Source: a virus
Direction: 5' to 3' (one strand)
IMG/VR virus record: IMGVR_UViG_3300044953_000401
Span: 1 to 31,691 of that record
Length of the DNA stretch: 31,691 nucleotides
Shown one piece after another: positions 3,029-27,357 of the stretch. Below the pieces are notes generated by a model that worked only from the letters and a program-made list of their open reading frames with translations, was not told the origin of the DNA and did no database searches. The position numbers and the translations under genes were made by a program. Each line of letters opens with the position of its first letter. Position 1 is the stretch's first letter.

Positions 3029-3060
3029 TGAATTTGGAAGGCAGGAAAACAGGAAGGGAA
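3029..3060 (+). repeat. Repeat arm 1 (plus orientation), left of the methyltransferase gene
   Basis: This is one of five copies of an arm with the core TTGAATTTGGAARGCAGGAA followed by another RRCAGGAA unit. It ends in GGAAGGGAA directly before the ATG at 3063, so it supplies the ribosome binding site of the methyltransferase gene. Its inverted partner lies at 3639-3670; they agree over about 28 bases with two or three mismatches. Confidence 0.8.
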
Positions 3061-3062
3061 AC

Positions 3063-3668
3063 ATGAACAGGGGCGACATTCTCAAACGGCGTCCGGGTCG
3101 CGTTCTCGTGGCGTGCGAATACAGCGGCAGAGTTCGGGACGCATTTGCCCGTCGTGGTTGGGATGCGTGGTCATGTGACCTGCTGCCGAGCGAGATGCCT
3201 GGCAACCACCACCAAGGCGACGTGCGGGAAATCCTGGGCGAAGGCTGGGACATCATGGTGGCGCACCCGCCCTGCACTCATCTGGCGGTGAGCGGTGCGC
3301 GCTGGTTCGCGGCAAAGCAGCGTGAGCAGGCTGAGGCTCTGGACTTCGTGCGGCTGCTTCTGGCCGCGCCGATCCAGCACATCGCGCTGGAAAATCCGGT
3401 GAGCATCATCAGCTCGAAAATCCGAAAGCCTGACCAGGTGATTCAGCCTTGGCAGCACGGCCACGGCGAGACCAAGGCGACTTGCCTGTGGCTCAAGAAT
3501 CTCCCGCTTCTCGCGCCGTCGCAGATCGTGGAAGGCCGCGAGCAACGAATCTGGAAACTGCCGCCGAGTGCGGACCGGTGGAAGGAACGAAGCCGGACGT
3601 TCTCCGGCATAGCCGAGGCGATGGCGAAGCAGTGGACTGCCTTCCTGCCTTCCTGCCTTCCAAATTGA
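3063..3668 (+). CDS. DNA C5-cytosine methyltransferase-like protein
   Basis: This 201-residue protein probably methylates cytosine in DNA using SAM. A Rossmann-like first strand reads RVLVACEYSGRVRDAFARRG, a variant motif I. The stretch DIMVAHPPCTHLAVSG holds HPPCT (residues 68-72), with Cys71 as the candidate catalytic cysteine, and ALENPVS holds Glu110-Asn111-Pro112, like the ENV motif. It is shorter than classical enzymes and lacks an obvious target-recognition domain, as is common in this compact phage family. ATG 3063 is chosen because GGAAGGG lies just upstream and family similarity begins there. The last residues (FLPSCLPN) are encoded by repeat arm 2, so the original stop was probably replaced when the arm arrived. 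The gene sits exactly between inverted arms, suggesting it moved as a cassette. Its target sequence is unknown. Confidence 0.75.
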   Translation: MNRGDILKRRPGRVLVACEYSGRVRDAFARRGWDAWSCDLLPSEMPGNHHQGDVREILGEGWDIMVAHPPCTHLAVSGARWFAAKQREQAEALDFVRLLLAAPIQHIALENPVSIISSKIRKPDQVIQPWQHGHGETKATCLWLKNLPLLAPSQIVEGREQRIWKLPPSADRWKERSRTFSGIAEAMAKQWTAFLPSCLPN

Positions 3669-3670
3669 AT
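3639..3670 (-). repeat. Repeat arm 2 (minus orientation), right of the methyltransferase gene
   Basis: Read on the minus strand this is AATTTGGAAGGCAGGAA followed by further GGCAGGAA units, the inverted partner of arm 1. It contains the last codons and stop (3666-3668) of the methyltransferase gene and ends eight bases before the ATG of the next gene. Arm 4 stands in the same position before its own downstream gene. Confidence 0.8.
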
Positions 3671-3677
3671 CCCAGCC

Positions 3678-3998
3678 ATGAGTGACATTCCGAAACAGCG
3701 GTGGGGCGAGGTGCCCGGTGAGGCTTCGACGGCGAAGTGGCCGGTGCGCGGTGAACTCATCTTCTGGCGCAAGGGCGATGCGGAGCGCGTGGCGGAGTGG
3801 TTGGCGCGGCAGGGATTCAATTCGGAGATCAAGGCGTGGGTGGAGGCGCGGCTGGAGGCCTACGCGGCGCGTTACCCGGAGGAGAAGGAGTGGCGCCTGC
3901 GCGACGAGGCGCGGCTGGACCTGCTCTGCTGGCAACGCCAGTTCAAGGCCGCCCGGCCCGCGCTGGACTGGCTCAGGGAATGGGAGGAGGCGGTGTGA
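3678..3998 (+). CDS. Small acidic-basic helical protein of unknown function
   Basis: This 106-residue protein starts at ATG 3678 just after repeat arm 2. It has a short basic N-terminus (MSDIPKQRWGEVPGE), then long charged helices rich in Ala, Glu, Arg and Trp (AERVAEWLARQGF, WVEARLEAYAARYPEEKEWR). No transmembrane segment or catalytic motif is visible. It precedes the pentamer-repeat tract and belongs to the early/replication block by position. I do not recognise a family. The helical, charged character suits a small DNA-transaction or accessory protein, but that is only a guess. Confidence 0.6.
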   Translation: MSDIPKQRWGEVPGEASTAKWPVRGELIFWRKGDAERVAEWLARQGFNSEIKAWVEARLEAYAARYPEEKEWRLRDEARLDLLCWQRQFKAARPALDWLREWEEAV

Positions 3999-4044
3999 GC
4001 GCGGTCACCCACCCGAAGCAAACCTGAATTTCCCACCGCCTAAA

Positions 4045-4169
4045 AACACAACACGCCACTGCACTTCACGCCACGTCACCTCACAACACTTCACAGCACG
4101 GCATCCAACAGCACCGCACCACACTACACACCACTCCACCTCACGACATAGCACGACACACCACAACAC
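4045..4169 (+). repeat. Tract of 25 phased NNCAC pentamers (leader of the next gene)
   Basis: Twenty-five five-base units run without a phase break; 22 end in CAC and the other three differ from NNCAC by one base (GGCAT, CCAAC, GACAT). The first two bases of each unit vary freely, so this is a degenerate period-5 array, not a simple microsatellite. It ends six bases before the ATG at 4176 and leaves no room for a Shine-Dalgarno sequence. Guanine is scarce, so RNA from it should be unstructured. Bases 3999-4044 before it show no other feature. Confidence 0.9.
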
Positions 4170-4175
4170 ATCGCC

Positions 4176-4745
4176 ATGAAAACTGCAATCATCGCACTGT
4201 CCTCCTGTTCCGCCATGACCCAAAGCCGCAAGCACGACACGCCCAAGACTAGCGACCGCGAGGGGGCCGCGGACTACGAGGCGCGCACCTGGATCAACAA
4301 GGCGCACTTCACCGCTGACGACCGCGTGTTCATCCCCGCCTTCGCCCTCAAGTGTTCGACGGTCGCCGCGGCCCGCTACACCGGCGACACCATCCCCGGC
4401 AAAGGCAAATCCACATGGACCAAGAAACTCCAGTCCGGCCTGCTGATTCCCGACGACGCCGTGACCAACCGCAAGCGGGCCGACATCGTTGCCGTCACCA
4501 TCAACGCCAATGCCGACGGCGTGCGCGGCTCCGGCAAGCGGGTCAGCCGCACCTTCCCCACGCTGACTCAGTGGGAGGCAAAGGTGACCGTCTATGTGCT
4601 CGATGACATCATCACCAAGGACGTGTTGCAGAAGTATTTCACCTACGCCGGCCAGTTCATCGGCGTGGGCCAATACCGCCCCGAGAACGGCGGCACCAAC
4701 GGCCGCTTCAAGGCCACCGTCGAATCGTTCGCAGAAATGTCCTGA
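4176..4745 (+). CDS. Conserved phage protein with C-terminal GVGxxRPENGG motif
   Basis: This is 189 residues from ATG 4176, or 176 from ATG 4215. The body (HFTADDRVFIPAFALKCSTV; then IPGKGKSTWTKK) and the ending (FIGVGQYRPENGGTNGRFKA) match a recurrent phage family of unknown function. That ending, in which a Gly-rich turn leads into a final strand, is its best hallmark. From 4215 the protein begins MTQSRKHDTPK, which looks like family N-termini. From 4176 it gains 13 mostly hydrophobic residues, but that ATG stands directly after the pentamer tract, as in the next gene. Neither start has a Shine-Dalgarno sequence. Position among replication genes suggests a role in DNA metabolism; this is inference. 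Confidence 0.65.
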   Translation: MKTAIIALSSCSAMTQSRKHDTPKTSDREGAADYEARTWINKAHFTADDRVFIPAFALKCSTVAAARYTGDTIPGKGKSTWTKKLQSGLLIPDDAVTNRKRADIVAVTINANADGVRGSGKRVSRTFPTLTQWEAKVTVYVLDDIITKDVLQKYFTYAGQFIGVGQYRPENGGTNGRFKATVESFAEMS

Positions 4746-4750
4746 GTTTC

Positions 4751-4835
4751 ACCACGGCGCATCACCGCATTCCACTGCACACCACGTCACCTCACTGCAC
4801 GCCACAACACATCGCCCCACAACACGACACTTCAT
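4751..4835 (+). repeat. Second NNCAC pentamer tract (17 units)
   Basis: Seventeen phased pentamers lie here, 13 of them NNCAC; the exceptions are GGCGC, CGCAT, ATCGC and TTCAT. The tract stops one base before the ATG at 4837. It shares CACGTCACCTCAC and CACAACACATCGCC with the first tract, so the two are related copies. No Shine-Dalgarno sequence is present. The whole gap between genes (4746-4836) is filled by this array. Confidence 0.85.
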
Positions 4836-4836
4836 C

Positions 4837-5358
4837 ATGGATTCCACCGAGATCAATCCCGCGCCACGCATCGGGCAGGCCAGCGTCGAGGCGCAGTTGC
4901 TGGCCAAGCGCCTGTCCGCGGTGGCGATGGGTGAAACCGTCACCTACGGGGAATTGTCGGACATCATCAAGCGCGACGTGCTGGAGTGCCGCCACATCCT
5001 GGGCACGGCCCGCCGGATTGCCCAGCGCGAGCACGGGGCCATCTTTGATTGCCGCTCCGATCACGCCGGCATCGTGCGCCTGAGCGACGCCGAGATGGCT
5101 GAAATCCCGTCCGCGAAGATCGCCAAGATCAACCGCATCGCCAGCCGGTCGGCGAAGGTGGCCACGCTGGTGGACTGGTCGAAGCTGGAGCCCGCGCAGC
5201 AGGCCAGCCTGTCCGCCACCATGAGCCTGTGCCTGTTCTTGCAGCAGGGAAGTTCCGTGAAATCCGTCGCCGCCATCCAGGCTTCGGCCACCCCGTCGGC
5301 CATCCCGGCCAAGGTGGACATGAAGGGGCTGCTCTCGCTGTTCAGCAAAACACCATGA
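4837..5358 (+). CDS. Phage winged-helix-like protein of unknown function
   Basis: This 173-residue protein starts at the ATG directly after the second pentamer tract. Residues 20-75 (AKRLSAVAMGETVTYGELSD through HILGTARRIAQREHGAIFDC) resemble a winged-helix fold: a helix, a short YGELS helix, a recognition helix, then a wing strand. This arrangement recurs in phage early proteins of unknown role. The C-terminal half has a basic helix (SAKIAKINRIASRSAKVATL) and Ala/Ser-rich helices. Its stop overlaps the next ATG (5355-5358), so the following gene is probably coupled. DNA binding is inferred from the fold; no partner or target can be seen. Confidence 0.65.
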   Translation: MDSTEINPAPRIGQASVEAQLLAKRLSAVAMGETVTYGELSDIIKRDVLECRHILGTARRIAQREHGAIFDCRSDHAGIVRLSDAEMAEIPSAKIAKINRIASRSAKVATLVDWSKLEPAQQASLSATMSLCLFLQQGSSVKSVAAIQASATPSAIPAKVDMKGLLSLFSKTP

Positions 5359-7509: not shown

Positions 7510-9714
7510 ATGCAGTCCGATGTCATGGCCCATGACGGGCCGAAGCCCGACGTGGGCCAGCTCATCACGGAGTTCCAGAAGTGCGCGCCGCTCAACGGCA
7601 CGTCCCTGCTCCGCACCGACCAGATCCGCTTCTGCCGCTGGGCCAACCAGTCCACCGACGGCCGCAAGCGCGGCACGGATGACAGCCCGGCCTTCCCCTT
7701 CGAGGGCGCCAGCGACACGCGGCCGATGCTGGCCGACCGCATCATCAACGAGCGCGTGGCCATCCTCACCACGTCGTTCTGGCGCGCCATGTTCCGGCCG
7801 AAGGCGGCGGATGACGAGGCGGGCCAATACGCCGTGGCGCTGGCGGATCATTTCGTCAACTCCGTGCTCACCGCGGAGCTGGTGCGCGAGGTGGAGCTGG
7901 CGGCGCAATACCGCGAGCACTACGGCTGGTTTGTGCTGCATCCGACCTGGGAACAGAAGGTGCGGCTCAAGTTGCAGGCGGTGACGCTGGCGGACCTCGC
8001 CGTGATCGGCCAGCAACTGGCGCCGGCCTTCCCCGACAATCCGCTGCTGCCACAACTGGCGCCGGCCGTGGCCAGCCTGGGCGTGGATGACGACCTCGAC
8101 CAGCTCATGGTGGCCACGGTGCAGCTCATCTACCGCGAGTTCGCCCGGGGCCAACTGGGCGGCGCGGACATGGACGCGGAAATCCCGCCGCTGCGCCCCG
8201 CGACGGTGAAGCGGGCGTTGCGCGCACTGCGCGACACGGGCAAGGCGGAGGTGCCGGTGCCGTATCTGGCCGCGAACCGGCCGATGATCCGGGCGCTGCG
8301 GCCGTGGGACGAGGTGTTCGTGCCGGGCGACACCACGAGCCTCCAGGAGGCGCGCGTGATCTACCAGCGCGAGTGGGTGACCGAGGCGGAACTGCGCGCC
8401 CGCGTGAACGACCGCGACTATGACAAGGCGTGGGTGGAGGCGGCGGTGAAGCAGCGCGGGAAATCCGTGACGGCGTTCTGGAGCCTGCCCGAGGGCGTGG
8501 GCGGTTCCTCGCTGACGGGCGTGACGGCGGTGAACCAGACCGTCACGCAGGGGCTGCCCATCGAGCACAACTACATCGAGCTGCTCCACTGCGTGCGGCG
8601 GACGGTGAACGAGGACGGCGTGCCCGGCGTGTGGCTGACGACGGTGCATCCGGCGCTGCGCGATTCGTGTGCGCGCAACGAACTGCTGGAGTATCCGCAT
8701 GGCGAGTATCCCTACGTGGAGGGCGCCCGCGAGTTCTGGTGCCGGTGCTTCACGAGCAGCCGCGGCGTGCCCGAGGTGGTGCATACCTGGCAGAACGAAC
8801 TGAAGGGCCTGCGCGACGCGATGATCGACCGCACCAGCATGACCGTGATGCCGCCGATCAACGAGTATCACACACCGCTGGGGACCAAATACCGGTTCGG
8901 TCCGGGCGTGCGGAACACCGTGGTGCAAGGCAAGGAACCGGCCTTCATGCAGATGCCCAGCGGTCAGGGCATGGTGGAATGCCTGGAAGCGATGGACCGG
9001 CTCGACGCCGCGGTGGACAATTATTTCGGGCTGCTTTCGGAGAAGGTGCCCGGGGCGCGCACGCAGGCATTGCAGGCCATGATGGTGCAAGGGTGGATGC
9101 TGAGCTGGTCGGCCGCGTTGCAGCAGATGGTGGGGCTGGCGCAAGCCTACATGCCGGACGCCGAGTTCGCCCGCGTGACGGGCGCGCCCGCGGGCTGGCT
9201 GGACAGTCACCGCGACCGACTGGGCGTGCTGGCCGTGGATCTGCACTTCGACGTGCGCGAACTCGATGCCGAACTCGTGGCCGCCAAGATGGAACTCATC
9301 GGCACCAAGGTGCTGCCGGGCGACGCCGCGGGGATCATCAGCCGCGCCAAGCTGACGGAAATGCAGATGCGGGCGATTGATCCGCGCTGGGCCAAGGAGC
9401 TGATCGTGAGCACGGGCGAGGCGAGCCAGAAGCTTTACAATGACGTGAAGAACGAGCTGGCGCAGATGTTCCTGGGCAACGAACCCCAATACGTCGAGAA
9501 CGACCCCACGGCGCCGGCCAAGCTGCAATACGCGCAGGGCATCGTGGCGGCGAACCCGAACTACCAGCAGGCGCTGGCACAGGGCGGACGCTTCGCGGAG
9601 CTCATGGGGAACCACGTGAAGAACCTCACCTTCAGCGTCACGCAACAGCAGAACCAGCAGATCGGACGCATCGGCGTGGCGCCCACCACGAAGCCGGGAG
9701 GCGTGCCGCAGTGA
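7510..9714 (+). CDS. Portal protein
   Basis: This 734-residue protein would form the ring at the unique head vertex through which DNA enters and leaves, and on which the terminase docks. The N-terminal stretch PAFPFEGASDTRPMLADRII followed by NERVAILTTSFWRA is characteristic of podovirus-type portals. Later parts (KGLRDAMIDRTSMTVMPPIN; GTKYRFGPG) fit the stem/wing region, and the end is Gln-rich (VTQQQNQQIGRIG). Its length is in the range of T7/P22-like portals. It is the first gene behind promoter A and is followed by a small protein, scaffold and capsid genes in the usual order. ATG 7510 is used; 7525 is a possible alternative. The assignment rests on motif, length and synteny. Confidence 0.75.
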   Translation: MQSDVMAHDGPKPDVGQLITEFQKCAPLNGTSLLRTDQIRFCRWANQSTDGRKRGTDDSPAFPFEGASDTRPMLADRIINERVAILTTSFWRAMFRPKAADDEAGQYAVALADHFVNSVLTAELVREVELAAQYREHYGWFVLHPTWEQKVRLKLQAVTLADLAVIGQQLAPAFPDNPLLPQLAPAVASLGVDDDLDQLMVATVQLIYREFARGQLGGADMDAEIPPLRPATVKRALRALRDTGKAEVPVPYLAANRPMIRALRPWDEVFVPGDTTSLQEARVIYQREWVTEAELRARVNDRDYDKAWVEAAVKQRGKSVTAFWSLPEGVGGSSLTGVTAVNQTVTQGLPIEHNYIELLHCVRRTVNEDGVPGVWLTTVHPALRDSCARNELLEYPHGEYPYVEGAREFWCRCFTSSRGVPEVVHTWQNELKGLRDAMIDRTSMTVMPPINEYHTPLGTKYRFGPGVRNTVVQGKEPAFMQMPSGQGMVECLEAMDRLDAAVDNYFGLLSEKVPGARTQALQAMMVQGWMLSWSAALQQMVGLAQAYMPDAEFARVTGAPAGWLDSHRDRLGVLAVDLHFDVRELDAELVAAKMELIGTKVLPGDAAGIISRAKLTEMQMRAIDPRWAKELIVSTGEASQKLYNDVKNELAQMFLGNEPQYVENDPTAPAKLQYAQGIVAANPNYQQALAQGGRFAELMGNHVKNLTFSVTQQQNQQIGRIGVAPTTKPGGVPQ

Positions 9715-9720
9715 AGAAGC

Positions 9721-9797
9721 TGAATCTGGAAAGCAGGAAAGCAGGAACAAAAGAACAGGTTCCCTCCGATTCCTGCCTTCCTGCCTTCCAAATTGAA
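9721..9797 (+). repeat. Complete hairpin element (repeat arms 3 and 4)
   Basis: Arm 3 (9721-9746, plus) and arm 4 (9770-9797, minus) are inverted copies of the sequence that flanks the methyltransferase at 3063. Here they are separated by only about 23 bases, so the RNA or single strand can fold into a stem of roughly 26 pairs with few mismatches. It fills the gap between portal stop and the next ATG. It could also act as a terminator or RNA-stability hairpin, though there is no U-tract. Confidence 0.8.
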
Positions 9798-9805
9798 CTG
9801 ACCCC

Positions 9806-10042
9806 ATGACTGCCGAATTCAAACGCCGCTTGGCGCTGCTCGACCCGCAGGACGCGCTCTGGAACGGCGTGAATCAGCTCCTGACTGACAACGTGGCCAT
9901 TGAAACCGAGGCGCTGTGCCGTGCCGGCATCGGCGACGAGGAAGCGCACCGGCTGCGCGGGCGGCTCTCCATGCTGCTGGACCTGCAAGGGCAGCTCGAT
10001 GACGCCGTGAAACTGGCGCGCCAGGAGGCCGCGAGTCCGTAA
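9806..10042 (+). CDS. Small helical protein between portal and scaffold genes
   Basis: This 78-residue protein starts at ATG 9806 eight bases after repeat arm 4, with no clear Shine-Dalgarno sequence. It is predicted all-helical from sequence: MTAEFKRRLALLDPQDALWN, then a middle helix (VAIETEALCRAGIGDEEAHR) and a final LQGQLDDAVKLARQEAA helix. A small gene is common between portal and scaffold genes of such phages. A virion assembly role is inferred from position only; I recognise no family. Confidence 0.6.
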   Translation: MTAEFKRRLALLDPQDALWNGVNQLLTDNVAIETEALCRAGIGDEEAHRLRGRLSMLLDLQGQLDDAVKLARQEAASP

Positions 10043-10254
10043 GAAACAGCGGAAAGAGTGGGAAACACTATGGTTCTGTTGAGCAGCCCGTGGCCAACCC
10101 GCGGGCGCTCTGCTTTGAGGGGGGTGCGCCGCGCGAGGTTGTCAGTTCGCACGGGCGAATTCCCACGGCGCCCGGCCGGGTGGCCGGGTGCCAGGGGAGT
10201 TCGGTGGCCGCAGGGCTGCCCTTCTGACTTCCGCCCCCATCGGGGCTAAATCCG
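10043..10254 (+). promoter_or_regulatory. Hairpin-rich leader upstream of the scaffold gene (candidate structured RNA)
   Basis: This 212-base gap contains no convincing gene but at least five hairpins. AACAG/CTGTT (10045-10049 with 10076-10080) encloses AGTG/CACT with a GGAAA loop. AGCAGCCCG pairs with CGGG and CTGCT (10082-10114). TTCGC/GCGAA has an ACGG tetraloop (10146-10159). An 11-pair GC stem with loop GGGT spans 10167-10192. GCCCC/GGGGC (10233-10246) stops eight bases before the scaffold ATG. Stacked helices and lack of a coding frame suggest a cis-acting RNA controlling scaffold/capsid expression. No known RNA family is recognised. Confidence 0.5.
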
Positions 10255-11451
10255 ATGACGATGCAGAACACCGGCGAGACGCCGGCCGCGGGTAACGGCA
10301 CACCAGCGGCAACACCCCAAACCGCAGCCCCGGCCACTGAGCCGAGCAAGGAACCGAGTCAGGCCGCCCGAGTGGCCGCCATCAGGGATTTCCTGAGAGC
10401 GCCCGCCCCCGCCGCCCAACCCACGGAACCAAACACACCGGAAACCGCCGAGGCCGATCAAGGATCACCCGCGGCCGAAGTGGAAACCGGGGTGCCCGAC
10501 GAAACCGATCTTTCCCAGCCGGATTCCGCCACGGCGGAACCGAACGCGGACAAGGACACAGCGGAAACGGACGGTCCTGAACCGACGGAAGGCGGCGCCC
10601 GCAAGGAGCTGCCCAAGTGGGTCAAGGACCGCATCGCCAAGACCAAGGGCCAGCGCGACGCGGCGCGGCAGGAGGCGGAGACGTTGAGGGCGCGGGTCGC
10701 GGAACTGGAGGCGAAAGCCAGCCAGCCCGAGACCCAGCCGCAGACGCCCCCACCACCGCCCCCCGCCGAGGCCGGCCCGCTCGCCGGCATCACGGACCCG
10801 AAAGCCCTGGAGCAGAAACGCACCGAGGCCAAGGGCACGTTGCAGGTGGTCGAAGACCTGTTGGACCAGCTCATGGATGAACCCGATGCCGTCGAGGCGC
10901 AGTTGCGGGAAGCGGGCGTGAAGCTCGCCCCCGGTGACGGCGCGTGGACGGGCAAACAGATGCGCGAGTATCTGCGGGGGGTTCAGCGGCAGGCCGGTCA
11001 GGTGCTGGAGGCGGTGCCCAAGCGGCAGCAGTTCCTGAAGGACGAAGGCGCGGCGCTCGACGCGGTGCTCAAGGCCAGCCCGGAACTCAGCAAAAGCGAC
11101 AGTCCGTTTCGCCAGACGTGGATGAAGGTGGCCAACGACCCGGGATTCCGGGCGCTGCGCGCCACCGATGCCAACTGGCCCATCCATGCCCGGCGCTACG
11201 CGCTGGGAGTGCTGGCCGAACAACAGCAGGGCGGCAACGCCCCAACGGCCACGCCCGCCAAGTCCGCGCCGGTTTCACCGAAGGTGCCCAAGCCCATCGC
11301 GGCGATGCCGCGGGCGCAGGTGAGCACGACGGAACCCGGCGACGCGCAGGAAGCGCACATTCGGGCGCGTGCGGCCAGACCGGACGCGAGCGAGGCAGAT
11401 CGTCGGGCATTGATCAGGCTGGACCTTCGCAAGTCGAGGCCCGGCCAGTGA
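10255..11451 (+). CDS. Scaffold-like protein
   Basis: This 398-residue protein has an N-terminal third rich in Pro, Ala, Thr and Glu without predicted fold, then a coiled-coil (RDAARQEAETLRARVAELEA), a Pro run, a helical middle, and a basic C-terminus (ARPDASEADRRALIRLDLRK). Low-complexity acidic N-terminus, central coiled coil and basic tail are the usual features of scaffolding proteins, which shape the procapsid and leave before DNA packaging. The position immediately before the major capsid gene supports this. No Shine-Dalgarno sequence is visible; a hairpin (10233-10246) stands just before ATG 10255. A second in-frame ATG is at 10261. No protease motif is seen, so a protease-scaffold fusion is unlikely. 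Confidence 0.65.
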   Translation: MTMQNTGETPAAGNGTPAATPQTAAPATEPSKEPSQAARVAAIRDFLRAPAPAAQPTEPNTPETAEADQGSPAAEVETGVPDETDLSQPDSATAEPNADKDTAETDGPEPTEGGARKELPKWVKDRIAKTKGQRDAARQEAETLRARVAELEAKASQPETQPQTPPPPPPAEAGPLAGITDPKALEQKRTEAKGTLQVVEDLLDQLMDEPDAVEAQLREAGVKLAPGDGAWTGKQMREYLRGVQRQAGQVLEAVPKRQQFLKDEGAALDAVLKASPELSKSDSPFRQTWMKVANDPGFRALRATDANWPIHARRYALGVLAEQQQGGNAPTATPAKSAPVSPKVPKPIAAMPRAQVSTTEPGDAQEAHIRARAARPDASEADRRALIRLDLRKSRPGQ

Positions 11452-11479
11452 GAGGGGTGATCCGCAACCACGGATCAAA

Positions 11480-12478
11480 ATGATCGAATACGCAAACATC
11501 ATCGGAAACCAGGAGACTTGGGAGAACTTCATCACCAATGTCCAAATGCAGGATGTGCCGTTCCTCGACTGGCTGCCCACGGGCGGCAAGCTGGTGAACG
11601 CCATCCACAACTACCAGACGGAGAAATACCGCGACCCGGCCCTGAACGTTCACAAGAACGGCGTGCCGGTGACCGGATTCCAGGCGGCCGGCGACAGCCG
11701 GGCCGAGCTGGTCGCCCGCGCTCACTACTCCACCAAGGCCGCCAGCGTCACCACGCTCCACCAGGACGTGTCCGACAACGAGGCCGTAGAGGACGAGCTG
11801 GCGCACGAACTCGACAAGCAAAACTACGAGCTGAAGACGGACATCGAAGGCTACCTGCTGGACGATTCCGAAGCCGTGGCCGGCGTGGACGGCGTGACCG
11901 GCACGCAGACCCGCTCGGTCGGCTCCTGGCTCAGCACGTCCGCGCACAGCGTGGACGACTTCAACAGCAACTTCCGCCCGGCCAGCGCGAGCGTGAGCAC
12001 CACCGCCACCGGGTCCATCACGGAGGATTCCATCCTGGACGTGCTGGCGAGCATCCGGTCGGTGACGCGCAGCCGCGAGCCGATCACAGCGTTCATGGGT
12101 CCGAGCCTGAAACGCTGGCTGAACAACCGCGTGTTCTTCCTGCCCTCCAGCGCGAGCACGCAGGCGAGCGGCGTGAACTACACCAAGCCGCTGGGCGACC
12201 GCTCCATCGGCCGGGTGATGCAGCGTTACGAGCACGACGGCGGCCCGGTGGACTTCGTGATCGCGGACTTCATGCACGCGATTGACGGCAGCGCCATCCA
12301 GAAGAACTGGAGCGCCTACTTCCTGCACCAGTCCAAGTGGGAGCTGCGCTGGAACAAGAAGCCCACCTGGATGCGCAAGGCGTATCAGGGCGGCAGCTAC
12401 GAGGCGTTCTGCGAGGCCATCTGGATGCTGCTCTGCAAGTCGCCGCGCGGCGAGGGCGCCTACCTGCCGGCGTCGTGA
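11480..12478 (+). CDS. Major capsid protein, SU10-like (DUF5309 type)
   Basis: This 332-residue protein would form the icosahedral shell. Segments typical of the SU10-type capsid family are visible. The N-terminus has VQMQDVPFLDWLPTGGKLVN, a stretch where relatives read TPFL-x-GK. ASVTTLHQDVSDNEAVEDEL precedes the long spine helix HELDKQNYELKTDIEGYLL. The region SREPITAFMGPSLKRWLNN and a C-terminal strand area follow. Relatives have about 300-340 residues, so this looks full length. It follows the scaffold gene by 28 bases and is followed by a probable capsid-associated gene and a strong hairpin. The HK97-like fold is inferred from the family, not shown. Confidence 0.75.
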   Translation: MIEYANIIGNQETWENFITNVQMQDVPFLDWLPTGGKLVNAIHNYQTEKYRDPALNVHKNGVPVTGFQAAGDSRAELVARAHYSTKAASVTTLHQDVSDNEAVEDELAHELDKQNYELKTDIEGYLLDDSEAVAGVDGVTGTQTRSVGSWLSTSAHSVDDFNSNFRPASASVSTTATGSITEDSILDVLASIRSVTRSREPITAFMGPSLKRWLNNRVFFLPSSASTQASGVNYTKPLGDRSIGRVMQRYEHDGGPVDFVIADFMHAIDGSAIQKNWSAYFLHQSKWELRWNKKPTWMRKAYQGGSYEAFCEAIWMLLCKSPRGEGAYLPAS

Positions 12479-20714: not shown

Positions 20715-21638
20715 ATGAATCTATTGACGCGGCTCTTCGGCCGCCAGACGGAGCGGACAATCCCCATCACACGGCCAACCGGGCTGCTTGATGACCCGGA
20801 CTTCTCCCGTAAGACCATCCAGCTCAAGGCCCAGTTGGAAGCTGCCCTGAAGGGCAAGGCCGCGGCGGAACGGCGGGCCGAGCAGCGCATCGTCCGCTTC
20901 ACCCCGGGCAAGGACTTCGTGTGCGTGCTGCCGTTCTGTGCGGCGGATGAACACCGGTTCCGCGATCTACTGAAGTGGATTGCCGAGCTGGGCCGGGTGA
21001 ACGCCACGGCGTTGGTGGTGGTGCCGCGGTCGCTGCCTTTTTTGACCGTGTATTCGGACTTGTTGTCGGATGCCTTTGAGCAGTTTAGGTGGCTTGTAAC
21101 CCCGTTCGACCTGCCCAAGGAAGGCTGGCCGACGGGCACCTGCTGGAGCTTCCTGGTCGCCGCGGAGTATTGCCGGCGGACCCGGCTGGATTTCTGGCTC
21201 AACGAGCCCGACTGCATCCCGCTCAAGTCGGGCTGGTTTGACGCCCTGCGCGACGAGTATCGCACCTGCGGGCTGCCCTACATGGGGTTCGTGGAGCCGG
21301 CCACGGCGGACTATCCCGAGCACCTGACCGGCAACGCGGCGTATCACCATTCCGTGTTCCATCACTTCCGCGCCGACAAGCTGGGCACGGCGTGGGACAT
21401 CGCAATGGCCGACGTGCTCACGCCGCAGGCGCATCGCACGCGGCTGTTTTATCAGGAGTTCGGTCCGCTCGACCGGCCGCCCACGTTCCACACCGTGGAC
21501 GATCTGCGCCGCATACCCAAGGACGCCGTGGTGTTCCACCGCAACAAGGACGGCAGCCTGATCCGCGTGCTGCGGGAACAGCGGGCGGCGGTTGAATTTG
21601 GAAAGCAGGAAAGCAGGAAGAAGGGGAAGGGGGCATGA
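20715..21638 (+). CDS. Glycosyltransferase-like protein (GT-A type)
   Basis: This 307-residue protein has, after a charged N-terminal helix, FVCVLPFCAADEHRFRDLLK, the opening strand and loop of a nucleotide-sugar transferase. LDFWLNEPDCIPLKSGWFD (Glu164-Pro-Asp166) stands where GT-A enzymes carry their metal-binding acidic motif. FHTVDDLRRIPKDAVVFHRN and KDGSLIRVLR close the domain. It probably transfers a sugar to virion protein, DNA or host envelope; the acceptor is unknown. It is the first gene behind promoter B. The last 15 residues (from VEFGKQESRKKGKGA) are encoded by repeat arm 5, so the natural end was probably altered. The stop overlaps the FkbM-type gene (21635-21638). Confidence 0.7.
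   Translation: MNLLTRLFGRQTERTIPITRPTGLLDDPDFSRKTIQLKAQLEAALKGKAAAERRAEQRIVRFTPGKDFVCVLPFCAADEHRFRDLLKWIAELGRVNATALVVVPRSLPFLTVYSDLLSDAFEQFRWLVTPFDLPKEGWPTGTCWSFLVAAEYCRRTRLDFWLNEPDCIPLKSGWFDALRDEYRTCGLPYMGFVEPATADYPEHLTGNAAYHHSVFHHFRADKLGTAWDIAMADVLTPQAHRTRLFYQEFGPLDRPPTFHTVDDLRRIPKDAVVFHRNKDGSLIRVLREQRAAVEFGKQESRKKGKGA
21592..21620 (+). repeat. Repeat arm 5 (plus orientation, solitary)
   Basis: TTGAATTTGGAAAGCAGGAA followed by AGCAGGAAG is nearly identical to arm 3. It encodes the C-terminus of the glycosyltransferase. The purine-rich bases just after it (GGGGAAGGGGG) supply the ribosome binding site of the FkbM-type gene at 21635. I see no inverted partner downstream of that gene. Confidence 0.75.
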
Positions 21639-25677: not shown

Positions 25678-26155
25678 CGGCAAGCACTACTGGCTGACGC
25701 CGCCAGAACTCTATGCGCAACTTAATGCCGAGTTCGGGCCGTTCGACTTCGATCCGTGCCCATTCCCGAAGCCGGAGGGGTTCGACGGGCTGACGTGCGA
25801 TTGGGGTCAGCGCAACTACGTCAACCCACCGTTCGGATCCATTATGCACAACGGGCGAAAGAAGGGTCCGACTGCATGGATGCGGAAGGCCATCGAGGAA
25901 CAGCGCAAGGGCAAGCTGTCGGTGGTGGTGTATCCTGTGGACAAGTGGGTGCTGATGATGCTCAGGGCTTCTGGCTCAGTGAACGTCCGAAATCTCGGGG
26001 ACGTTCGCTGGCACGCAATCGAGGATGGGTCGCAAGGCAAGGGAACTGGCCGCCACATCGCCGCGTTTGTCTTGTGGCCTGACGCCGCGCCGCCGTTCCC
26101 CGGAATGACACTTGACGCCGGCCCAGCGCCGGAGAACTGTTCGCGCGGGAATTGA
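25580..26155 (+). CDS. Phage N6-adenine DNA methyltransferase (Dam-like)
   Basis: This is 191 residues from the first ATG of an ATGATGATG run. The core begins HYWLTPPELYAQLNAEFGPF, then DFDPCPFP, and NYVNPPFG with Asn82-Pro-Pro-Phe85, the DPPY-type catalytic motif in the NPPF form used by the phage Dam family. WMRKAIEEQRKG and a final HIAAFVLWP strand complete the domain. It would methylate adenine in a short site and may protect the genome. ATGs at 25583, 25586 and 25610 are alternative starts; homology begins about 30 residues in, so the exact start is uncertain. The C-terminal extension PFPGMTLDAGPAPENCSRGN is encoded by direct repeat 3 and beyond. Confidence 0.8.
   Translation: MMMNECSKRRMVKPHQSQLQPSANKFHVGNGDDGKHYWLTPPELYAQLNAEFGPFDFDPCPFPKPEGFDGLTCDWGQRNYVNPPFGSIMHNGRKKGPTAWMRKAIEEQRKGKLSVVVYPVDKWVLMMLRASGSVNVRNLGDVRWHAIEDGSQGKGTGRHIAAFVLWPDAAPPFPGMTLDAGPAPENCSRGN
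26091..26108 (+). repeat. Direct repeat 3 of the modification cassettes
   Basis: CGCCGTTCCCCGGAATGA, an exact 18-base match to 25566-25583; it lacks the ATGATGAACGA right part. In this frame it encodes PPFPGM, the same peptide found just before the Dam-like start, and it marks the end of conserved Dam sequence. Confidence 0.75.
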
Positions 26156-26178
26156 CAACCTCGCGCATGGCGTAGTCA
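26152..26178 (+). promoter_or_regulatory. Candidate promoter C upstream of the tail fibre gene
   Basis: A perfect TTGACA (26152-26157) overlaps the previous stop. TAGTCA (26173-26178) lies 15 bases on, only three bases before ATG 26182. The spacer is short and the -10 differs from TAGGTT, so it is the weakest of the three promoter candidates. Transcription from it would give an almost leaderless mRNA. Confidence 0.3.
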
Positions 26179-26181
26179 GCC

Positions 26182-27357
26182 ATGCCGCTTAACGCTACCG
26201 TTCAACGCGGTTTCACCGCCACCGCCGGGATTCCCGTCACCACCGACGACCTCAACGCCGGCTTCCTGCCGACCGTGGACATCGAGGGCTCCGTGGGCTC
26301 TTCCGATCTCGGCGCCGGCAGCACGAACAGCACGCACATCGTGCCCGGGCCGATTGCCTACGTGGCGACCACGGGTTCGGCCAATGCCTACGTGGCGGCG
26401 CCCAGTCCGGCCCTCACCGCCCTGACCACGGGGAGCTGGCTTGCCCTGAAGGCCAACCACACCAACACCGGCGCAGCCACGCTGAACGTGAACAGCCTGG
26501 GCGCCGTGGCCATCCGCAAGCAGACCGACACCGCGCTGGAGGCCGGCGACATCCGCAGCGGCCAAGTGTTCTGGGTCACCTACGACGGCACCTACTGGCA
26601 ACTGACTTCGCCCGAGGGCCTGGCGCGCAAGACCTACGGCGAAGCCGCCGGCACCACCAACGCCTACACGCTCACTCTAACGGACATCGTGACCACGCTG
26701 GCCGCGCTGACCGGGCGCGTGCTGCTCTTCAAGGCCAATGCCGCCAACACGGGCGCCTGCACGCTGAACGTCAATTCGCTGGGCGCGACCTCGATCAAGA
26801 AACTCGACGGCACCGACCCGAGCGGCGGCGACCTTCCCAACGCCAAGCTGATCGCCGTGGCCTACGACGGCACCAACTTCCAACTGCTCGGCGGCACCAG
26901 CAGCGCCTCGCTGCCGGATGTGGTGACGGCCGGCACCTACGCCACGCCCAGCAGCGTGACGGTGGATGCCAAGGGCCGCATCACGTCCATCACGGCGGGC
27001 ACCGCGCTGACCGCCTTCTCCGGCAGCGCGGTGAGCGTTCCCGCCGCCGGGGCGGCCGTGACGCCGCAGGCGCACTCCCTGGGCTCGGTGCCGCGCAATG
27101 CGCACTGGGTGCTGGTCAACGTCACCGGCGACGCCGGTTACACGACGGGCCAGGAGATTCCCCTGCATGACGTGGGCAGTCCGGTGTCGGGCACCGACGA
27201 CCAGGTGCCCTGCTTTGCGGCCGTGCGCGACGGCACCAACCTGGGACTGGTCCGCAGTTCCGCCGCCACCACGCTGTCGGTGGCCCATGCTTCCACCGGT
27301 GTGTTCACCACGATCACCGAAGTCAACTGGCAGGTGAAACCCTACGCCATCAAGTGA
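26182..27357 (+). CDS. Tail fibre protein with two internal repeats
   Basis: This 391-residue adhesin-type protein has two copies of a module, at about residues 60-142 and 152-236. Each contains a strand like LALKANHTNTGAATLNVNSL, an IRK or IKK turn, a G-DI or G-DL segment and YDGTYWQL or YDGTNFQL. These modules recur in phage tail fibres, where they build a beta-rich trimeric shaft. The next part (VVTAGTYATPSSVTVDAKGR) is the usual link to the C-terminal receptor-binding region, which here is a compact strand domain (residues 270-391). It starts at ATG 26182 with no Shine-Dalgarno sequence. It is one of two surface-binding proteins in the window, besides the spike. Confidence 0.75.
   Translation: MPLNATVQRGFTATAGIPVTTDDLNAGFLPTVDIEGSVGSSDLGAGSTNSTHIVPGPIAYVATTGSANAYVAAPSPALTALTTGSWLALKANHTNTGAATLNVNSLGAVAIRKQTDTALEAGDIRSGQVFWVTYDGTYWQLTSPEGLARKTYGEAAGTTNAYTLTLTDIVTTLAALTGRVLLFKANAANTGACTLNVNSLGATSIKKLDGTDPSGGDLPNAKLIAVAYDGTNFQLLGGTSSASLPDVVTAGTYATPSSVTVDAKGRITSITAGTALTAFSGSAVSVPAAGAAVTPQAHSLGSVPRNAHWVLVNVTGDAGYTTGQEIPLHDVGSPVSGTDDQVPCFAAVRDGTNLGLVRSSAATTLSVAHASTGVFTTITEVNWQVKPYAIK

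Follow-up and report, generated by a model that had tools for sequence, protein, structure and literature searches.

Analysis of a 31,691-base virus record (IMGVR_UViG_3300044953_000401; the whole stretch is referred to below as the window) revealed a predicted H-type pseudoknot of 26 nt that includes the start codon of a scaffold-like gene. Gene order is shared by the related phages found, and immediately 5' of their scaffold ATG lies the same small design. Its position, its architecture and its compensatory changes show that the predicted pairing between the start codon and a nearby upstream loop has been maintained. The best explanation, to which we assign a probability of roughly 0.6, is that a cis-acting leader RNA gates scaffold translation by holding the start codon.

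The gap before the scaffold-like gene

The features of the region are listed in Table 1. The 212-base gap to which the earlier note drew attention (10043-10254) is real and extends from the stop of the 78-aa ORF to the ATG at 10255; relatives carry an ORF of similar size at the same place. Most of the gap is covered by a 63-aa ORF (10058-10249, GTG start), which was rejected as a gene as it had no PHROGs or Pfam match. A search for tRNA or tmRNA in the gap found none, and blastn of the gap against a phage collection gave no match. The 398-aa scaffold-like protein of the window has no PHROGs match. Weak matches (E 1e-5 to 6e-3) to phrog_8865, 'head scaffolding protein', were obtained for the syntenic genes of L005, L104, L022 and L023, and none for those of L018 and L159.

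Table 1. Genes and predicted RNA features around the scaffold start in the window
Feature	Position	Strand	Remarks
Portal-like gene	7510-9714		First of the run portal, 78-aa ORF, scaffold-like gene, capsid
78-aa ORF	9806-10042	+	Upstream of the leader; no PHROGs or Pfam family
5' hairpin of the gap	10043-10082	+	In the MFE structure; z -4.0; no counterpart found
Branched GC-rich fold	10083-10219	+	z -5.8; neither blastn similarity to L159 nor any counterpart in relatives was found
Long hairpin	10156-10203	+	22-nt arms, 82% complementary; z -7.3 alone
Predicted H-type pseudoknot, conserved, including scaffold start codon	10232-10257	+	26 nt; gapless layout match to L159
Stem 2, 5' arm GCCC	10233-10236	+	Pairs with 10243-10246
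Loop CCAUCG	10237-10242	+	10238-10242 (CAUCG) complementary to the AUG and its two preceding bases
Stem 2, 3' arm GGGC	10243-10246	+	Pairs with 10233-10236
A-rich linker UAAAUC	10247-10252	+	Same place and length as UCAAUC in L159
P2 3' strand, CG and AUG start codon	10253-10257	+	Pairs with the loop: C10238AUCG / CGAUG10257
Scaffold-like gene, 398 aa	10255-11451	+	Position between portal and capsid genes
Major capsid protein	11480-12478	+	Pfam SU10_MCP, E 3e-24

A predicted pseudoknot containing the start codon

The 26-nt element runs through the scaffold ATG and lies partly outside the gap coordinates given in the earlier note. The window (CGCCCGCUUGUGGGCUCAAUCACAUG) and L159, its nearest complete relative (CGCCCCCAUCGGGGCUAAAUCCGAUG), align here without gaps: the stem is kept, and in P2 two adjacent pairs, -1 and -2, have each undergone a compensatory exchange. 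At the positions fixed by L159 the window has four of four stem 2 pairs and five of five P2 pairs, a combination found in 5 of 20000 shuffles. Of the 771 ATGs on both strands of the window, the scaffold start is the only one that has it. Searched freely, without the L159 prior, the window's knot gave p 0.08 against shuffles, which is not significant alone. In the window P2 could also form as a simple hairpin, with stem 2 absent (-8.8 kcal/mol, as against -7.0 for stem 2 alone).

A GCCCC-CAUC-GGGGC stem at 10233-10246, ending eight bases 5' of the ATG, is indeed present and had been proposed to mask a missing ribosome binding site. No Shine-Dalgarno-like sequence was found directly before the scaffold ATG of the window, so there is no such site for the stem to mask. 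The idea of masking holds in another form, in that the start codon itself pairs with the loop. All three AUG bases are paired in the window because its loop reads CAU; in relatives the loop reads CUU, so that the central base of the AUG faces a U-U mismatch.

Conservation and covariation in related phages

Nothing useful came from close searches that used the scaffold protein, the capsid protein or the DNA of the gap. The relatives are portal matches from IMG/VR. The portal of phage C75C1 (tblastn E 7e-41) led through a two-sequence alignment to the best 80 of 509 matching relatives, and the leaders studied are therefore the best-scoring part of a larger set. A second portal alignment, of a nearer clade, gave 80 loci from 241 matched, some of them already known, and a third, with the 52%-identical L085, led to L159 with its complete leader. 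Several loci are two views of one contig (e.g. L005 and L086); L004, L160 and L161, whose portal match is partial, were left out. The motif (CUU upstream) guided the choice of start codons, and L059 was set by hand.

The element was found at the scaffold start in 137 of the 143 best-scoring portal-bearing loci with a resolvable start, and is missing in L003 (phage C75C1), L015, L016, L017, L021 and L029. An in-frame ATG lies further upstream in 29 of the 137 element-bearing loci and in none of the other 108. The shared layout consists of one arm of stem 2, a loop with CUUGC or similar, the other arm, a linker that is A-rich in most relatives, and GCAUG. For covariation analysis the six loci without the element were omitted together with 13 loci in which the contig ends too early, and the resulting set comprised 61 different sequences (60 relatives and the window).

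Positions +1, -1 and -2 are paired in all 61 sequences. The pair at +1 is invariably U-A, that at -1 is G-C in 58, A-U in two and C-G in one, and that at -2 is C-G in 58, G-C in two and U-A in one. Wherever a sequence departs from GCA, its loop carries the matching change (L023 and L078, A-U at -1; L083, G-C at -2; L159, U-A at -2; the window, C-G at -1 and G-C at -2). In a portal tree built by a quick method these variants fall on separate branches, the window and L159 being together. The sequences are related, so the pairing counts are not independent trials.

In a MAFFT alignment (A6) 99.4% of the cells of the core helix are paired, and changes on both sides are seen at two of the three pairs that form it. 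The covariation score of the five-pair structure was reached by none of 500 shuffles, and slid versions of it pair in 10-54% of cells compared with 83% for the structure itself; this alignment misplaces the loop of the window, whose row therefore counts partly against the structure. In a control, -1 and -2 were paired at 65 of 65 distinct scaffold starts but at 267 of 1910 (14%) other ATGs in these loci that lie at the same distance from a CUU. Across 1.33 Mb of loci the loose pattern CTTG...CATG was counted 136 times at scaffold starts; the 214 occurrences elsewhere are about chance level by our own estimate.

Stem 2 has at least three pairs in 53 of the 61 sequences and at least two in all (two only in eight); its forms include GCCC/GGGC, AAGG/CCUU, ACCC/GGGU, AGAU/AUCU and GGCC/GGCC. 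In many relatives P2 amounts to three pairs only, and single-sequence knot scoring left 10 of 66 sequences without a parse under a three-pair rule. Two stems, with the loop of the first pairing outside it, place the predicted element in the H-type pseudoknot class, and the compensatory changes support both stems. The earlier note had proposed a cis-acting RNA in the gap and expected homologous gaps to lack compensatory changes or the stems if this were wrong. At the scaffold start the proposal survived, because both a conserved position and compensatory changes were found across relatives.

Twelve more distant portal relatives lie on genome contigs (Verrucomicrobia, Opitutae, Kiritimatiellae, Lentisphaerae and one delta proteobacterium); the layout is mostly missing from them, and no convincing knot was seen among the starts inspected. 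No second copy of the knot was seen by eye at the capsid start in the 81 distinct capsid leaders listed. The scaffold-capsid junction of relatives (e.g. L020, L038, L044, L009) has a hairpin around the scaffold stop codon, before the capsid start, with stems that vary and are apparently compensated (GGGG/CCCC, GGAC/GTCC, GAAC/GTTC).

Clade-specific leaders and translation initiation

In the short-leader clade (16 sequences aligned) a larger RNA is supported, with 10 of 21 pairs changing on both sides, which none of 500 shuffles reached. It has three parts: one hairpin, UGGC/GCCA, surrounds the small gene's stop codon; another, CCAG/CUGG, has a loop (CGUUA) that pairs with an upstream UAACG and so forms a second pseudoknot; the third part is P2. 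Leaders of the L104 clade (8 sequences) have a GGGUUU/AAACCC stem 5' of the knot, and one sequence swaps a pair. Neither this stem nor the larger RNA was found in the window.

The structure might instead aid initiation by shortening the path from a distant Shine-Dalgarno sequence to the AUG. PMC3014915 describes such a shortening by a stem for T4 genes 38 and 25, in which an RNA stem is likewise placed directly before the AUG. Bridging of this kind would fit the short-leader clade, where an AAGGA-like sequence lies directly 5' of CUU-stem-AUG, although the AAGG there is itself an arm of stem 2. It would not fit the window: no AAGGA-like sequence precedes the loop in the window, L159 or long-leader relatives, and the conserved pairing reaches the A of the AUG, and in the window all of it. 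The T4 arrangement has a Shine-Dalgarno sequence 5' of the stem and a free AUG; the window has no Shine-Dalgarno sequence, and its AUG lies inside P2. We regard bridging as unlikely, even with a possible instance at the window's own capsid gene. At that start (11445-11482) GAGAGGGG is followed by a hairpin, GATCCG-CAACCA-CGGATC, and then AAAATG (AAAAUG in the RNA), an arrangement resembling a Shine-Dalgarno-AUG bridge with a z of only -0.8.

The upstream part of the gap

The gap as a whole folds at -122.6 kcal/mol, compared with -97.2 +/- 4.8 kcal/mol for 200 dinucleotide shuffles, none of which equalled it (z -5.3). Among 210 same-length segments of the record (40 shuffles each) the lowest z was -4.2; this grid does not hold the gap in exact register, and the segment overlapping it scored -3.4. 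The stems described in the earlier note were recovered. The MFE structure contains the nested hairpin at the 5' end, the long branched stem and the GC stem of 11 pairs (10167-10177/10182-10192), and the TTCGC-ACGG-GCGAA hairpin at 10146-10159 can be read directly in the sequence.

As one element, the 212-base structure did not hold up, since its nested, branched, TTCGC and GC stems are without a sequence counterpart in L159 (best blastn E 1.1). Leader folds of 12 relatives gave z of -0.07 to -1.23 in ten cases, with -2.96 for L159 and -2.45 for L018. Most of the strong predicted fold is peculiar to this phage, its upstream GC-rich structure being lineage-specific, and relatives share the last 26 nt only.

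For a 49-nt stretch at 10131-10179 (+) there is a 73-77% partner on the opposite strand (26118-26166, -), which lies just ahead of the gene at 26182; at one end the two share 14 identical bases. As a widespread repeat this partner was rejected: an exact scan found its 18-mer twice in the window and in no viral contigs.

The strong fold could be a mere transcription terminator or inserted repeat with no role at the scaffold start. Intrinsic terminators (GC stem and T run) do precede the element in L159 and L011, and the partner at 26118-26166 is what a dispersed repeat might have. In the window, however, no intrinsic terminator was found in the gap: the big hairpin lacks a good T run, and one weak terminator-like match (10086-10106) is no more than shuffles give (0.8). 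The conserved 26 nt would also be left unexplained. This reading is improbable for the scaffold start, and may hold for the upstream part alongside masking by the last 26 nt. The upstream GC-rich structure may insulate the scaffold-capsid message from the portal message, which in L159 and L011 an intrinsic terminator appears to do.

Scaffold and capsid may have a transcript of their own, since promoter-like hexamers occur in some relatives; L088 has 10/12 matches, but shuffling the stretch gives 1.2 hits on average, and by the search rule used there were none in L106, L159 or the window. Leaders of L009, L095, L102, L126, L128 and L142 have inserts of several hundred bases between terminator and knot, and the knot is intact. 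Three tandem GGTACGTTTC units lie directly 3' of the small gene at L159:6446-6480.

Other features of the window

A second non-coding gap, between the portal gene and the 78-aa ORF (9715-9805), holds a long purine/pyrimidine hairpin, GGAAAGCAGGAAAGCAGGAA ... TTCCTGCCTTCCTGCCTTCC (z -3.95), with related copies at 3029-3058, 3640-3684 and 21593-21622. Arrays of spaced CAC units with a five-base rhythm are present at 4014-4179 and 4750-4850, in and upstream of short ORFs, and recall by analogy arrays bound by multimeric RNA- or DNA-binding proteins. A host search with the GGAAAGCAGG repeat matched 3 of 240 genomes of one phylum, and there was one match in the backwards control.

Comparison with known RNA elements

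Rfam 15 scans at gathering scores gave no matches in the whole window or in L005, L006, L009, L013, L014, L018 and L080. Rfam E-value scans of four short stretches (the leaders of the window, L113, L018 and L044) stayed at chance level, with none near a gathering score. No known ribozyme or riboswitch was thus identified by Rfam. GP20-b RNA (RF03003) is a curated cis-regulatory RNA whose name suggests a phage gene; its score of 12.6 bits (E 4.2; gathering score 36.2) is at chance level.

The preQ1-I and SAM-II riboswitches are compact H-type knots with an A-rich linker that hide the initiation region, as the scaffold knot would. A metabolite-binding riboswitch of that kind controlling the scaffold gene is nevertheless very improbable: two short stems, the A-rich linker, the sequestered start and near-invariant loop bases resemble one, but there is no Rfam match (the preQ1-I and SAM-II models included, in the window and the relatives scanned), the CUU is accounted for by pairing with the AUG, and a structural gene is an odd target.

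Translation-controlling pseudoknots are already known, and in the open-licence literature no description was found of such a leader at scaffold genes, which has no match in Rfam either. The autogenous operator of T4/RB69 gene 32 is similar in that a pseudoknot in a phage mRNA leader is believed to govern translation of the next gene; PMC3014915 places that knot about 67 nt upstream of the AUG, bound by gp32. The scaffold knot, lying directly before the scaffold start as a structure in the leader, resembles this type of operator, with the scaffold gene as the putative regulated gene. Unlike the gene 32 knot it contains the AUG. The translational operator of rpsO (S15) also contains a pseudoknot, according to the same paper, but belongs to a cellular ribosomal protein gene; here the comparison was made through Rfam only.

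Proposed mechanism

Under the preferred reading, gating of scaffold translation by the leader RNA, the loop of a compact H-type pseudoknot would carry an anti-start sequence, CAU in the window and CUU in relatives, with two to four further complementary bases, and would pair with the scaffold AUG and the bases just before it. With the knot closed the start codon would be unavailable and scaffold translation low. The window has no Shine-Dalgarno sequence, so access to the AUG would be the main control point. A ribosome or a regulator would open the knot by shifting the balance; both this and the regulation of the scaffold gene are inferences. The favoured candidate regulator is the scaffold protein itself, a guess based on P22, in which feedback on scaffold synthesis has been known for decades. 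The knot would in this way set how much scaffold is made, or when, relative to capsid protein. A packaging or RNA-processing role, also suggested in the earlier note, gained no support.

A bolder form of this proposal, which we consider possible but doubtful, is a switch common to the phage family, in which a loop resembling the initiator anticodon (CAU, or the weakened CUU) would hold the start and either the scaffold protein or the small upstream protein would close or open it, so that feedback on the scaffold-to-capsid ratio would act at the start codon itself.

For phages, both the ratio of scaffold to capsid protein and the timing of their synthesis have to be right. A covarying knot on the scaffold start codon in a large group of uncultured phages, of a family absent from Rfam 15, would offer a concrete and testable RNA mechanism for this.
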